A stretch of DNA of 54,358 bases. Origin: Planctomycetota bacterium. GTDB taxonomy: Bacteria; Planctomycetota; Planctomycetia; Gemmatales; Gemmataceae. Each line of letters starts with the position of its first letter. The first letter of the stretch is position 1. Below, piece by piece: positions 11,231 through 44,229 of this stretch. The notes under the pieces are model-generated. The model was not told the origin of the DNA, searched no databases, and worked only from the letters and a program-made list of their open reading frames with translations. Where the stretch lies: the NCBI GenBank assembly GCA_016191165.1, contig JACPPF010000140.1:1-54358 (forward strand), given 5' to 3'. The position numbers and the translations under genes are program-made.

Positions 11231-12481
11231 TCAGCGCATTTTCGTTCGTTCCATCAGATCGCTGATGAGGCCGTTCAACTCTTCGTCCGTGAACGGATGA
11301 ACGAATTCACACCCATGAATCCAGAGCTTGTTGTCGGCCGGCTTGATCCAGCGCACGCGCGCGAGTTGGGGGACGACGTCCTCGCACAGATCGCTGGACA
11401 ACGCGACCTGGAGGACGATTCCCGGCTCGAAACGGCGATTGCATTGCAGGCACAATCCCGTTGTGGACAGGTCGATCACGGCCGAGTCCCAGACCTGGGC
11501 GGCGGAACCGAGCGCTGGCCGGCAGTTCCCGGGGACGTCGGTTTCAAAGCGCAGCGCCTTGCGGCGTTCTTGGCCGGTTTTCTTGCTCACCTTCGTCGGG
11601 CCTTGTTGTGTCGGGCCGCCGGGCAGCCGCAAGTCCGCGGGGAAACTTTTCCAGCCCGTCAGGTAGGCAACAAACTCGCTCACCGATTTGGGCCGGCGCG
11701 CCGGGTCAGCCTGGAGTGCCATGCGAATCGCCAGATCGACCGCTGGCCGAATTCCCGGTAACTTGCTGATCGAGGCGTCGTACTGGTTTGTCATTTTTCG
11801 ATGAAGCAGTGTGGTTATCGTCCCCGTGCCAAAGGGACATTCGCCAGTCAGAGCCGTGTGAAGGGTTGCGGCGAGGGAATAAACGTCACAGCGCTCGTCC
11901 GCGGTGCTGGCGTCTTCAAATTGTTCGGGCGCCGCGAAATGTAGCGAGCCCAACGCCATCTTGGTCTTTGTCAGCCGGCTCAGGGAACCGAGGTCTTTGA
12001 TTAAGCCCAAATCGGCGAGCTTGATCTGCCCGTTGGCCCCCACGAGGATGTTAGCCGGTTTGACATCGCGATGGATGATCTGACGCTTGTGCAAATAAAT
12101 CAACGCATCCGCGATCGGGAGAATCGCCGAGAGCGCTTCGTGTTCGCGCAGGTGTTTTTTTTGGGTGATGGCCTCAGTCAAGCTGCAACCTTCGATGTAC
12201 TCCATGACGAGAAAGGGAAGCTGTCCGTGGGTACCGTAGTCGAAGAACTTCACCAGATTCCGATGAGATAAAACCTTGGCGGTGGCGTATTCCAGCTCAA
12301 AGCGCCTGACGAGCTGGGGATCGCCAACAACCGCGCGGGATGCCAGTTTGATAGCGACGATCTCATCCGTCACGGGATTTCGCGCCTTGAAGACCGTACT
12401 CATGCCGCCCTGGCCGATTTTCGACAGCACCTCGAATCTGCCGATTTGGGGAACACCTTGTTTTGGGATGAGCGAGGTCAT
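11231..12481 (-). CDS. Ser/Thr protein kinase fused to a C-terminal PilZ domain
   Basis: This is a 416-residue soluble fusion. The kinase domain (about 15-275) shows GQGGMS (23-28), Lys45 in VAIKLA, HRDVKPAN (137-144), DLG in place of DFG (157-159) and APEQ. After a linker, residues about 300-410 look like a PilZ c-di-GMP receptor domain: ERRKALRFE with the RxxxR element (Arg307/Arg311) and DLSTTG (337-342) for the D/NxSxxG element. The kinase would phosphorylate Ser/Thr under possible c-di-GMP control. It is divergent from the GGDEF-PilZ gene at 12813, whose C-terminus looks homologous. No transmembrane segment is seen. Confidence 0.9.
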   Translation of the reverse strand: MTSLIPKQGVPQIGRFEVLSKIGQGGMSTVFKARNPVTDEIVAIKLASRAVVGDPQLVRRFELEYATAKVLSHRNLVKFFDYGTHGQLPFLVMEYIEGCSLTEAITQKKHLREHEALSAILPIADALIYLHKRQIIHRDVKPANILVGANGQIKLADLGLIKDLGSLSRLTKTKMALGSLHFAAPEQFEDASTADERCDVYSLAATLHTALTGECPFGTGTITTLLHRKMTNQYDASISKLPGIRPAVDLAIRMALQADPARRPKSVSEFVAYLTGWKSFPADLRLPGGPTQQGPTKVSKKTGQERRKALRFETDVPGNCRPALGSAAQVWDSAVIDLSTTGLCLQCNRRFEPGIVLQVALSSDLCEDVVPQLARVRWIKPADNKLWIHGCEFVHPFTDEELNGLISDLMERTKMR

Positions 12482-40347: not shown

Positions 40348-40395
40348 GTAGGTCAGGTTTTTGAGCCTGACGTCAGGCTTGAAAGCCTGACCTAC
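40348..40395. repeat. Long inverted repeat in front of the sigma factor gene
   Basis: The 23-bp arms (40348-40370, 40373-40395) match at all but about two positions; the unit is gtaggtcaggtttttgagcc-type and its mirror. It lies 22 bases before the GTG start of the sigma gene and could form a hairpin in the mRNA leader. The remaining part of the 40107-40416 gap has no gene. Confidence 0.6.
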
Positions 40396-40416: not shown

Positions 40417-41208
40417 GTGAATCACCTCAGCAACATCGTGTCGCGCTTTCAATTTGGCCATACCCACTGGTCAATCGTGTTCCAGGCAGGCCAGGGGGAG
40501 GGGAGCATCGCCGAGCAGGCGCGCGGCGAACTTTTGGTTCGCTATCACGATGCGGTCTATCGGTACCTTTGCGCCAAGCTCGGCGATTCCGATGCGGCCT
40601 GCGAACTCTTCAGCCGCTTTGCCGAGCGTGTGGTCGAAATCCATCCTTTCTTGCAGCGGGCCAATCCGGAGAAGGGGCGTTTTCGCGACTACCTCAAGTC
40701 CGTCTTGAGCCGCATGGTCATCGATTACCACCGTGAAAACCAGCGCGAGCAAAAGAAAAGGCGCGAAATCACGCCGGGCTCCGATCATGAACCGATGCAG
40801 GCGGAAACCGATCCGGGGAATGACGTTGAATTCCAGAAGGTCTGGGTCGAGGAATTGATGAACCATGCCTGGAAAGGACTGGAGCAGGTCGAGAAGACCA
40901 AAGGCCAGCCCTATCATTCGCTGCTGCTTTACAAGGCCCAGAACCCGCAGGTCCGCTCTGAGGCGATGGCCCAGCATTTCACGACTGTCCTCGGCAAACC
41001 GATGAGCGCCGCCAACATTCGCCAATTGCTCCACCGCGGGCAGGAACTCCTGAGCGATCTGCTCGTGGAGGAGGTGGCCCGATCTCTGCGCGACGGAGAA
41101 AACGCGACGGTCAGTGCCGAACGCGTCGAGGAAGAATTGATCAACCTGCAACTCTTCGACAAGTTTCGCCGGGATGCGCTCGATCGATATCGCGAGCGCA
41201 CGGGATGA
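40417..41208 (+). CDS. ECF-type RNA polymerase sigma factor
   Basis: This is a 263-residue protein starting at GTG. Region 2 is YHDAVYRYLCAKLGDSDAACELFSRFAERVV and NPEKGRFRDYLKSVLSRMVIDYHR, the layout seen in planctomycete sigma factors (PLYAFLRR...DLTQEFFARL). The region-4 helix is IRQLLHRGQELLSDLLVEEV. A tail of about 50 residues follows. It would direct RNA polymerase to a non-housekeeping promoter set. No anti-sigma gene is adjacent. It lies upstream of the caspase gene, whose promoter-like motif (41257-41282) is a candidate target. Confidence 0.88.
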   Translation: MNHLSNIVSRFQFGHTHWSIVFQAGQGEGSIAEQARGELLVRYHDAVYRYLCAKLGDSDAACELFSRFAERVVEIHPFLQRANPEKGRFRDYLKSVLSRMVIDYHRENQREQKKRREITPGSDHEPMQAETDPGNDVEFQKVWVEELMNHAWKGLEQVEKTKGQPYHSLLLYKAQNPQVRSEAMAQHFTTVLGKPMSAANIRQLLHRGQELLSDLLVEEVARSLRDGENATVSAERVEEELINLQLFDKFRRDALDRYRERTG

Positions 41209-41256: not shown

Positions 41257-41310
41257 TGTCACAACCGCCTCCGCTTGCGTTAAGGGTGTGAAGCTTTTGA
41301 AACCCTTAAC
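41257..41310 (+). promoter_or_regulatory. Candidate ECF promoter and hairpin upstream of the caspase gene
   Basis: TGTCACA (41257-41263) and CGTTA (41278-41282) are 14 bases apart, followed by agGGTGTGAA. The same arrangement with the same 14-base gap precedes the gene at 43510. A 9-bp perfect stem (41279-41287 with 41302-41310) overlaps the downstream part. TGTCACA resembles the -35 reported for ECF41-group promoters, though the -10 differs. Confidence 0.6.
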
Positions 41311-41330
41311 CCCAATCGGAGTAACTCACC

Positions 41331-42218
41331 ATGTTCGCGTTCATCAACCTGCGTCGCTTTGTCCTCTCCCTGTGCCTGGTCGCGGCTTTCACATTTGCGA
41401 TGCCCCACGCCCACGGTAACCCCAATGACACGCCAACCGTTCACCTGGTCGCGATCGGCGATACCGATGTCGGCGGCGACTTTGGCCGAAAGCTTGGCGA
41501 GGATGCCCGCAACATCAAAACCACCTTCGAAAAGGCCTTCGCCCGCGCCAACCGGTCCAGCCAGCTCAAGACGCATCTGCTCTTGGGCCAGAGCGTGACG
41601 CCGGCGAATATTCTCAAGGTGATCGGCCAGCTCAAGGTGGGCCGCAATGACACGATCGTCGTCCTGTATTCAGGCCACGGAGCGACCGACCCGCGCCTCG
41701 GCCACGTGCTGACGCTGGACCACGGCCGACTGTATCGCAAGGACCTCCTGAACGCCCTGAAAGCGAAGAACCCGCGGCTCATGGTGGTGCTGACCGATTG
41801 TTGCTCGTCGGGCGTTCCAGCCCGAGCCGTGGTGAACACCTACACGCCGCGTCCGCTGGCCTCCGGCCAGGTCATGCAGTGGAGCACGGTGCAAAGCCTG
41901 TTCCTTCGCCATCAAGGCCTGGTGGACATCACCGCGGCCGAACCGGGTTACTGCGGCAAGATCGACCTGCAAAAGTCGGGCAGCCTGTTCACGAATGCTC
42001 TGACCAAGATTCTGACGGCCCCCAACGCCAGCCTGGTGAGCAACCTCGACAAGGACGGCGACGGCCAAATGCAGTGGGACGAAATCCTCCCGCAACTGCG
42101 AGCTCAGGCCGCCCAGTACGACCGCAACCAGATGCGAACCCGGGACGTGCGGCCGCAGCAAGCCTATGCGACCTCGCTGGGCCGCTGGATACCGATGACT
42201 TCGCCGACCGCTCGCTAA
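41331..42218 (+). CDS. Secreted caspase-like (peptidase C14) protein with EF-hand loop
   Basis: This is a 295-residue protein with a signal peptide (1-29). The caspase p20-like core holds the catalytic His116 (YSGHG) and Cys158 in TDCCSSG (155-161). Near the C-terminus DKDGDGQMQWDE (240-251) is a canonical 12-residue EF-hand loop with Asp at 1, 3 and 5 and Glu at 12. So a calcium-regulated, metacaspase-like cysteine protease outside the cytoplasm is likely; the substrate is unknown. It has its own promoter-like motif and a strong terminator and sits behind the sigma gene. Confidence 0.9.
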   Translation: MFAFINLRRFVLSLCLVAAFTFAMPHAHGNPNDTPTVHLVAIGDTDVGGDFGRKLGEDARNIKTTFEKAFARANRSSQLKTHLLLGQSVTPANILKVIGQLKVGRNDTIVVLYSGHGATDPRLGHVLTLDHGRLYRKDLLNALKAKNPRLMVVLTDCCSSGVPARAVVNTYTPRPLASGQVMQWSTVQSLFLRHQGLVDITAAEPGYCGKIDLQKSGSLFTNALTKILTAPNASLVSNLDKDGDGQMQWDEILPQLRAQAAQYDRNQMRTRDVRPQQAYATSLGRWIPMTSPTAR

Positions 42219-42236
42219 TCGATGACTGAAAACGCC

Positions 42237-42273
42237 AGCCCGTCCCGGTGTAACGCCGGGGCGGGCTTTTTTT
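42237..42273 (+). terminator. Rho-independent terminator of the caspase gene
   Basis: A 12-bp stem (42237-42248 with 42256-42267, one G-T pair) and a 7-base loop end in seven T residues. It starts 19 bases after the stop codon. Confidence 0.88.
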
Positions 42274-42302
42274 GTGCGCCGAGACATCTGAACAGAAGGC
42301 CC

Positions 42303-42335
42303 TTGACAGACCGCGCGGATGGTTACATAATGTAA
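42303..42335 (+). promoter_or_regulatory. Promoter and operator of the higBA pair
   Basis: TTGACA (42303-42308) and CATAAT (42326-42331) are 17 bases apart, near-consensus for the housekeeping sigma. The 13-bp palindrome ttacat-a-atgtaa (42323-42335) covers the -10 element, a natural place for HigA autorepression. Confidence 0.75.
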
Positions 42336-42362
42336 ACATCGCCCTGTGATCGGAATATGATC

Positions 42363-42671
42363 ATGCGTGTCATCACGCGAAAACGGCTACGAGAATTCGC
42401 CGAACGATATCCGGACGCCGCTGAGCCCTTGGGGAAGTGGGAGTCGGTGGTTCGTGAGGCCGGTTGGACGAGCCTCCAGGATGTGCGACGCGTGTTTCCC
42501 CATGCCGACGCAGCGATTGTGGCGAGTGAAAACACCGTGACCGTCTTCAATATCGGCGGCAACAAGTATCGTCTGATTACCGCCATCCACTACAACACCC
42601 AACGCATTTTCGTCCTTCGATTACTCACACACGCCGCATACAGCAAGGATTTGTGGAAGGACACCCTATGA
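42363..42671 (+). CDS. higB: HigB-type mRNA interferase toxin
   Basis: This is a 102-residue toxin of the RelE/HigB superfamily that cleaves mRNA at the ribosome. The opening MRVITRKRLREFAERYPDA and the closing RIFVLRLLTHAAYSKDLWK are typical of the HigB_toxin family. The start at the second ATG is preferred, since gga stands 8 bases before it; ATG 42357 is possible. Its stop overlaps the antitoxin start (ATGA). Confidence 0.92.
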   Translation: MRVITRKRLREFAERYPDAAEPLGKWESVVREAGWTSLQDVRRVFPHADAAIVASENTVTVFNIGGNKYRLITAIHYNTQRIFVLRLLTHAAYSKDLWKDTL

Positions 42672-43141
42672 AAGCCACGACGACAAAACCGCGTGCGACG
42701 ACGAAACGTAACGCCAACCGCGGTCCCGGCCGGGCCTATCTGGCGCTGATCGACGCTCTGCCGCTTCGGCCGTTGCGTTCGGATCGCGACTATGACGCCG
42801 CGGCGGCGATTCTCGACTCCCTGGCGGTGCGGCCTGAAGGCGACCTGGACCGCGGCGAGCAGGACTATTTCGACACGTTGACCTTGCTGGTCGAAGCGTA
42901 TGATCGGGAACACTTTGCCGACGTGACGCCGCGCGATCCCGTTGAGATGCTCAAGTACCTGATGCAAGAAAGCGGCATGACGCAGGCGGACCTGGGGCGA
43001 CTGCTCGGCAATCGCGCCCTGGCGTCGTTGATCCTTAACGGACATCGGCAACTCAGCAAGAGCCACATCGTCAAGTTGGCGAAACACTTCAAGGTTTCGA
43101 CGGCACTCTTCCTTGGCGCCACGAAATCGAGCGGAGGTTAA
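42668..43141 (+). CDS. higA: HigA-type antitoxin
   Basis: This is a 157-residue antitoxin. A Thr/Lys/Arg-rich N-terminal extension of about 25 residues is unusual. Residues 30-100 are acidic and helical and should wrap HigB. The C-terminal HTH (about 98-150, MTQADLGRLLGNRALASLILNGHRQLSKSHIVKLAKHF) is of the Xre/HigA type and would bind the palindrome at 42323-42335. The start has ggaagga 7 bases upstream. It overlaps higB by 4 bases. Confidence 0.92.
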   Translation: MKATTTKPRATTKRNANRGPGRAYLALIDALPLRPLRSDRDYDAAAAILDSLAVRPEGDLDRGEQDYFDTLTLLVEAYDREHFADVTPRDPVEMLKYLMQESGMTQADLGRLLGNRALASLILNGHRQLSKSHIVKLAKHFKVSTALFLGATKSSGG

Positions 43142-43243
43142 CGACTTGGGTGCCTGGGAATCCGACACCCGCGAAATGGTGACACTTCGGCGTTGACTTC
43201 CCGATTTCCGTTTTCGCCTGATCCTCAGACTCGCAATCGTGCT

Positions 43244-43323
43244 CGCTTGGCGGTTTCGCGCCAGGAAGAAACCGGGAAGCCAGAATGCCGACGCCAGCGA
43301 TCCGTCCGCGAGACCGCCAAGCG
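43244..43323. repeat. Inverted repeat in the gap after higA
   Basis: The 17-bp arms (43244-43260, 43307-43323) match at 16 positions with 46 bases between. The 43142-43509 gap otherwise contains only the promoter-like motif at 43411-43436 and no gene. Confidence 0.5.
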
Positions 43324-43410
43324 GGCGCGTCGGCGGATCTTGAGAGCGCATTGAAACGACGAGCCTGGCGGCCCCCGGTTCTCGTGAATTCAAAAAAAAT
43401 CCTTCAAGCC

Positions 43411-43445
43411 TGTCACACCAACCCTCCTCGCCGTTAGAGGTGTGA
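43411..43445 (+). promoter_or_regulatory. Candidate ECF promoter of the two-repeat secreted protein gene
   Basis: TGTCACA (43411-43417) and CGTTA (43432-43436) are 14 bases apart, followed by gaGGTGTGAA, just as in front of the caspase gene at 41257. The tcacacc/ggtgtga ends (43413-43419, 43439-43445) also form an inverted pair. The motif lies 65 bases before the start codon. Confidence 0.6.
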
Positions 43446-43509
43446 AACCAAAACAGGTCGCGGCGGTTGCCGAGGCCGATTCAACACCTTCAAGCCACAG
43501 GAGAAGACC

Positions 43510-44229
43510 ATGTTCCGCAAAATGATGATCGCTGCTTTGCTTGCATTCAGCCCCGTCCTCGCTTTCAGCCAGGACCCGATGACCGAACGGCCCAATAGCC
43601 CGGCGCCGCTGGTGAAGCCGATGCCCGCTCCTCAGAAAAACGCCAGCCGGCAGGTTTCGCCGATGATCCAACAGAAGGCCGTCACCGTGCCAGGCTCGAT
43701 GTGGGGCGGCAGCGAACAGATCAACAACACCGGCCGGCTCGCCTTTGGGCTTGGCAAAGATGGCCGTGCCGTCATGCTTGACGCCAACAGCATTGTCAAG
43801 GGAACCTGGGCTCGCCACGGTGACGACATTGTCATCCGCTTCGACAACTGCGTCTACCGCGGCAAAATCCAGGGCAACGTGTTCTCCGGGCGAGGCACCT
43901 TCACCACCGGGACGCAAGCGGGCGTTTCCTGGACCTTCCGCGTGCAGCATGACGACCCGTATCGCGGACGCGAATTCCGCGGCCGCGAAAACCTCAACGG
44001 CTTCGGCCCCGTGAGCTTCCGTTTCGGCAACAACGGCGCGGTCCAGATGATCGATGCCCGCGCGACAGTCAACGGAACCTATTCGATGGATATGAACGTG
44101 GTCACGATGCGATTTGGCAACTGCGTCTACGTCGGCACGCTTCGCAACAACGGCATAACCGGCGTTGCCCGTTACACGACAGGAGCCCCGGGAAACCTGT
44201 GGACCTTCACGGTCAATCTGGCCCGCTAG
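43510..44229 (+). CDS. Secreted protein with two related beta-rich repeats
   Basis: This is a 239-residue protein with a signal peptide (to about residue 20) and a Pro-rich linker. Two units follow, residues about 65-145 and 156-236. Each has a (L/V)(A/S)FxxGxxG strand, a (K/N)GT(W/Y) turn, an RFxNCVYxG core (110-118 and 201-209) and a close of (T/Y)TTGxxxxxxWTF. The single cysteine of each core could pair or bind a ligand. No named domain was recognised. Ribosome site aggagaag. It shares a promoter motif with the caspase gene. Confidence 0.83.
   Translation: MFRKMMIAALLAFSPVLAFSQDPMTERPNSPAPLVKPMPAPQKNASRQVSPMIQQKAVTVPGSMWGGSEQINNTGRLAFGLGKDGRAVMLDANSIVKGTWARHGDDIVIRFDNCVYRGKIQGNVFSGRGTFTTGTQAGVSWTFRVQHDDPYRGREFRGRENLNGFGPVSFRFGNNGAVQMIDARATVNGTYSMDMNVVTMRFGNCVYVGTLRNNGITGVARYTTGAPGNLWTFTVNLAR

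Follow-up and report, generated by a model that had tools for sequence, protein, structure and literature searches.

Two exported-protein genes in a planctomycete genome carry the same promoter-like element, and a sigma factor gene ends just before the first copy. The arrangement raises the question of whether both sites belong to a single promoter class and, if so, which sigma factor reads them. The window (the whole stretch of DNA analyzed) comprises 54,358 nucleotides from a member of the Gemmataceae. Its relevant features, all on the forward strand, are as follows.

40417-41208, +: sigma factor gene, 263 aa, GTG start; ECF-type sigma2 and sigma4 predicted, with extra C-terminal helices
41257-41263, +: site 1, -35-like element TGTCACA (exact match)
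41278-41282, +: site 1, -10-like element CGTTA (N14; equals N15-GTTA)
41285-41292, +: site 1, downstream block GGTGTGAA (GGGnGTG in the 20-site alignment)
41331-42218, +: exported caspase-like protease, 295 aa (Pfam Peptidase_C14)
42357-42671, +: HigB-type toxin gene (Pfam HigB_toxin, 84.2 bits)
42668-43141, +: HigA-type antitoxin gene (Pfam HTH_3, 33.2 bits)
43392-43399, +: A-tract, UP-element-like, 11 bp upstream of site 2
43411-43417, +: site 2, -35-like element TGTCACA (exact match)
43432-43436, +: site 2, -10-like element CGTTA (exact match)
43439-43446, +: site 2, downstream block GGTGTGAA (exact match)
43510-44229, +: exported two-repeat protein, 239 aa; predicted beta-barrel, calycin-like

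Two matching sites beside a sigma factor gene

The initial annotation described TGTCACA-N14-CGTTA plus a downstream block, equally spaced, at 41257 and 43411. A pattern search for TGTCACA-N14-CGTTA-NN-GGTGTGAA reproduced this exactly on the forward strand, with matches at 41257-41282 and 43411-43436 and GGTGTGAA at identical spacing behind each; at site 1 this block probably lies around the transcription start. The stop codon of the sigma factor gene ends at 41208, which leaves the 48 bases before site 1 that had been reported, and the ATGs of the caspase-like (41331) and two-repeat (43510) genes are 74 and 99 bp past the respective site starts. Only 4 of the 14 spacer bases are alike in the two sites. 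Because the three blocks are kept while the spacers differ, the similarity points to selection and not to a fresh copy; a recent duplication of the upstream piece was ruled out, as spacer and flanks both differ.

The pair is also rare. The exact core occurs twice in the whole genome (7,227,506 bp), both times in the window and 2.2 kb apart, and the backward control of the exact pattern gave 0 occurrences in the same sequence. Relaxing the spacing to TGTCACA-N10..25-GGTGTGAA still yielded just the two window sites genome-wide. With 3 mismatches allowed, the pattern was found at background level (26 found vs 24 expected); what stands out is the exact pair alone. When upstream regions were compared blindly, with no motif supplied (41 sigma loci, 1,739 pairs), the window pair ranked sixth; the five pairs above it resemble palindromes or terminators, one duplicated stretch, and GC-rich matches.

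Both downstream genes had been annotated as encoding secreted proteins, in keeping with the signal-peptide-like N-termini of the two products. The caspase-like protein matches Peptidase_C14 (PF00656) at 28.6 bits, above the cut-off of 21.4, and by motif has a predicted dyad of His116 (SGHG) and Cys158 (DCCSSG); domain and dyad together place it as a predicted member of family C14. It also contains an EF-hand-like DKDGDGQMQWDEI. The two-repeat protein has no Pfam match. Its model is all-beta, with a pLDDT of about 70-92 in the repeats, and the best Foldseek matches, all weak, are to MoaF-like, FABP and nitrobindin barrels; its domain is common to its relatives. The HigB/HigA pair between the two targets (42357-43141) is probably a later insertion, because the orthologous targets of a genome from another genus (G224) lie head to head without it.

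The sigma factor itself matches TIGR02937 at 34.7 bits and Pfam Sigma70_r2 at 22.2 bits, both below cut-off. Its AlphaFold2 model (pLDDT 82) has helices at 30-116 and 134-224 plus a C-terminal set at 234-262, and Foldseek matched it to SigE, SigW, AlgU and SigL with probabilities of 0.92-0.99 and E-values of 0.01 or worse. As modeled, the protein is of the ECF type, having sigma2 and sigma4 only and no sigma1 or sigma3. Just upstream of its start, at 40349-40394, lies a palindromic stretch, TAGGTCAGG...CCTGACCTA with CCTGACGTCAGG inside, that resembles a small repetitive element. A search of the contig collection with the protein returned a single relative, cut off by its contig end; of two genome surveys, one found relatives in 23 of 41 genomes and the other in 51 of 95, and its own genome holds at least five genes of the family. 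The window sigma factor is a member of a planctomycete family with kinase links at several loci: a Ser/Thr kinase gene adjoins its relatives in another contig of the same genome (C125) and in two other genomes (G023, G007). No kinase gene lies beside the window sigma gene. The nearest one found, at 11231-12481 on the minus strand and ~28 kb away, encodes a Ser/Thr protein kinase that carries a PilZ domain at its C-terminus.

Similar sites in this genome and in other planctomycetes

Several further sites were located in the same genome. One, at C21:77354 on the minus strand, precedes a small secreted protein gene. Another, at C125:34310 on the minus strand and not used in training, is followed by a secreted protein, a Ser/Thr kinase and a sigma paralogue (L078 6170-9850), an order that offers a ready case for studying kinase control of the sigma family. 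On contig C53, an A-tract and TGTCACA-N14-CGTTTGGG stand before a single-repeat homologue of the two-repeat protein, about 3.4 kb from yet another sigma paralogue.

Orthologous targets keep the element as well. In G005, another genome of the genus, TTGTCACAA and the register of site 1 are retained before the caspase orthologue; the site reads TGTCACA-N14-CGTTA-N4-TGTGAAG as in the window, although the caspase frame is broken. This genome (91% complete) has no close sigma orthologue. G224 encodes a sigma orthologue (70%) on a different contig from its orthologues of the caspase (53%) and of the repeat protein (44%); the caspase gene is preceded by TGTCACG-N16-GTAAGCGGGGTGAG and the repeat gene by TGTCACA-N15-CGTTGATA. 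In G001, TGTCACA-N16-GTAAAC lies 91 bp upstream of a caspase homologue. Promoter and target therefore stay together even where the sigma gene lies elsewhere, which argues for a regulon acting in trans. The caspase orthologue of G005 and the sigma orthologue of G001 (loci L254 and L085, in that order) are both frame-broken, which may mean that the module is decaying or that the assemblies are in error.

A gapless alignment of 20 sites reads TGTCACA-N16-(g/t)TA-nGGG-n-GTG, and many related sites have an A-tract about as far upstream as that of site 2. Since TGTCACA was the selection criterion for these sites, its invariance is no evidence; the conservation downstream of it is. Across planctomycetes the element is thus best read, from these alignments, as [A-tract]-TGTCACA-N15/16-(g/t)TA-nGGG-n-GTG. 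The second box in the other genomes is (c/t)GTA-nGGG-n-GTG at N15 (GTA at N16), which marks N14-CGTTA as a genus-level variant.

The position of the sites relative to sigma homologues recurs. The distance past the stop codon of the homologue is about 29 bp in G107, 9 bp in G033, 10 bp in G015 and about 34 bp in both G065 and G053, and in all five the site precedes genes for exported or surface proteins. G027 has TGTCACA-N13-TCAGAAC on each side of the sigma gene, in G075 and G164 two sites are no more than about 1-3 kb away from the gene, and in G221 and G264 site and sigma gene are divergently oriented. Because TGTCACAAC may encode Cys-His-Asn, sites were checked against reading frames and start-codon distance; coding sequence was ruled out for those of G033 and G221, both of which precede start codons. 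No TGTCACA site was present in the searched flanks of the sigma relatives of G009 (50%), G250 and G273 (about 44%) or of the broken G001 copy. Loci L147 and L148 (G075) and L154 (G164) carry paralogous exported genes of an MTFN... family with a lipocalin-like C-terminus, and their promoters are near-identical, about 17 kb apart and in opposite orientation. The targets in G107 and G075 have Lipocalin_4 matches below threshold, and a lipocalin-like fold is a possible common theme of the targets.

Two scoring models were used to quantify the resemblance. A ten-site matrix that excludes the window sites, one training site being from another contig of the same genome, scored site 1 at 18.1 bits and site 2 at 8.7, the best score in 628 kb of reversed sequence being 16.9. 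Model R2, trained on 17 sites that all come from other genomes, ranked site 2 first in the window (14.2 bits, E 0.0013) and site 1 second (11.5 bits, E 0.01). Over 297 genomes it returned two further sites in the genome of the window and many elsewhere. Among 40 matches outside the training set, 17 are followed at 45-170 bp by an ORF whose product has a signal peptide, as called by a crude rule, compared with 2.6% of random positions drawn from the same loci (p about 4e-17); some of these matches are mutual orthologues, so the effective number is below 40. In automatically chosen sigma loci, 3 sites lie before a start codon against a permuted mean of 0.59, and 9 of 299 controls also reached 3, so the enrichment is real but modest. 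Class-wide, TGTCACA-N14..16-GTAAGG is no commoner than its backward control, consistent with a small rather than a global regulon. TTGTCACAACCGCC was discarded as a class-wide search pattern: it gave few matches, many of them inside genes, and is of little use alone.

Relation to known ECF groups

The likeness of TGTCACA to the -35 element of ECF41 promoters, pointed out in the initial annotation, is correct: these promoters have TGTCACA-N16-CGTC, with the -10 element CGTC at N16 +/- 1, so that the spacer is close to 16 as in the sites described here, and the ECF41 sigma gene stands beside its few targets, as that of the window does beside its presumed ones (PMC3426412). The promoter of Rhodobacter sphaeroides RSP_0606 (ECF41) even starts with TGTCACAACCGCC, 13 bases identical to site 1 (PMC3426412). 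ECF41 proteins have a fused C-terminal regulatory domain, and their gene neighbors encode a carboxymuconolactone decarboxylase, oxidoreductase or epimerase (PMC3426412). In the window, by contrast, both sites have CGTTA at N14, genes of these neighbor types are absent, the sigma gene being next to caspase, HigBA and repeat-protein genes, and the targets encode exported proteins, unlike those of ECF41. The regulatory domain of ECF41 is SnoaL-like; the window sigma factor has no SnoaL match, and TIGR02957 is absent from its profile matches. No gene in its genome or in 12 relatives scores above the TIGR02957 cut-off. Membership of ECF41 was therefore rejected: the -10 element and spacer, C-terminal domain, TIGR02957 and neighboring genes all fail, only the -35 agrees, and this likeness does not make a sigma factor that lacks the other features an ECF41 protein.

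A further parallel is with ECFs that are activated by kinases, which PMC8103513 and PMC8999054 review. ECF59, ECF61, ECF62 and ECF217 include planctomycete examples and are held to be activated by phosphorylation (PMC8999054). As in these groups, planctomycete relatives of the window sigma factor are found beside Ser/Thr kinases; unlike them, the window sigma gene has no adjoining kinase. The DAED motif reads DAAC in the window protein, DVAG and DAAG in near relatives and commonly DAAD elsewhere, an alteration that recalls the kinase-activated groups. Given the kinase beside the sigma gene in the paralogous loci, control of the family by phosphorylation is plausible by analogy. No promoter for the window sigma family or for ECF59, ECF61, ECF62 or ECF217 was found in the literature searched, a set without the main classification papers. 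Judging by their titles, PDB entries 2map and 5or5 show region 2 of E. coli sigma-E on its -10 element and an engineered version on GTAAAA, which indicates that an ECF-type region 2 can read GTA instead of the usual GTC; E. coli sigma-E belongs to another group, however, and the -10 of the window is GTTA, not GTAA.

Candidate readers of the sites and the proposed regulon

Computational observations comprise the two sites, the fact that they are rare in the genome, their conservation before orthologous targets and their link to exported-protein genes and to the sigma family. We consider it likely that the sites are ECF-type promoters through which a few exported-protein genes are controlled in trans, with the adjacent sigma factor as the probable reader. 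The small regulon of extracytoplasmic proteins suggested in the initial annotation thus gains support from sequence comparison across planctomycete genera and families. From adjacency and family-wide association we infer that the adjacent sigma factor reads both sites; the start points and the inducing signal are putative in the same sense. Several observations count against this reading: the sigma relatives whose searched flanks have no TGTCACA site, the missing close sigma orthologue in G005, the class-wide frequency of TGTCACA-N14..16-GTAAGG, the modest enrichment in automatically chosen sigma loci, the many sigma genes of the genome, and a spacer and -10 that read N14-CGTTA in the window but N15-nGTA in other families.

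The promoter class could be the same and its reader a paralogue or another ECF, with the adjacent sigma gene a chance neighbor. The family members elsewhere in the genome would be available for this, as would further ECF-like genes (18 TIGR02957 matches, none above cut-off), and the G005 caspase site has been kept in a genome with no close orthologue of the window sigma factor. However, both N14-CGTTA cores that the genome contains are at the window sigma locus, and sites adjoin sigma homologues in several unrelated families, which makes a different reader unlikely. Operators for a dimeric regulator are less probable still. TGT-C-ACA is itself symmetrical, and the inverted repeat TCACA(n)CC...GG(n)TGTGA, with centers 28 bp apart, places TCACA and TGTGA at equal distance in both window sites and in G005. 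The second arm, however, is not kept as a complement and elsewhere reads GGGAATTGT, GGGAGTTGT or GGAAGACG; what is kept is the directional order of -35, fixed spacer and GTA-GGG, a promoter-like distance to the start codon, and A-tracts upstream. An RNA hairpin in the 5' UTR, formed before the caspase gene by the inverted repeat GTTAAGGGT...ACCCTTAAC at 41279-41310, is a very improbable account of the conserved block: site 1 and its G005 counterpart, where the stem is partly altered (GTTAAGT...ACTTAAC), both fold with a 5' stem, but the mean folding z-score is 0.03 across 29 related leaders, and the window leaders alone give only about -1.4.

If the sites are ECF-type promoters read by the adjacent sigma factor, a promoter of this class would combine TGTCACA as its -35 element, in many cases behind an A-tract, with a fixed spacer, a -10 element of the GTA/GTT type, and a conserved GGGnGTG near the start. 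The sigma factor would bind core RNA polymerase, with sigma4 reading TGTCACA and sigma2 the GTA/GTT box, and transcription would begin near GGGnGTG to give leaders of roughly 40-65 nt. It would thereby switch on a handful of exported-protein genes, among them those for the secreted caspase-like protease and the calycin-like barrel protein.

Many ECF sigma factors are peculiar to planctomycetes, and most of these lack a known promoter or target. For one such family, the present analysis provides a testable promoter definition and a target list, and it links the family to exported proteins that include a secreted caspase-like protease. It also suggests that an unrelated group uses a -35 element known mainly from ECF41. 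A broader reading is more tentative, at somewhat less than an even chance: that a planctomycete-wide, partly kinase-linked sigma family has its own promoter class, TGTCACA-N15/16-GTA-nGGG-n-GTG. Such a family would control exported proteins in trans, and in this lineage it would direct an inducible caspase-like/calycin-like module.
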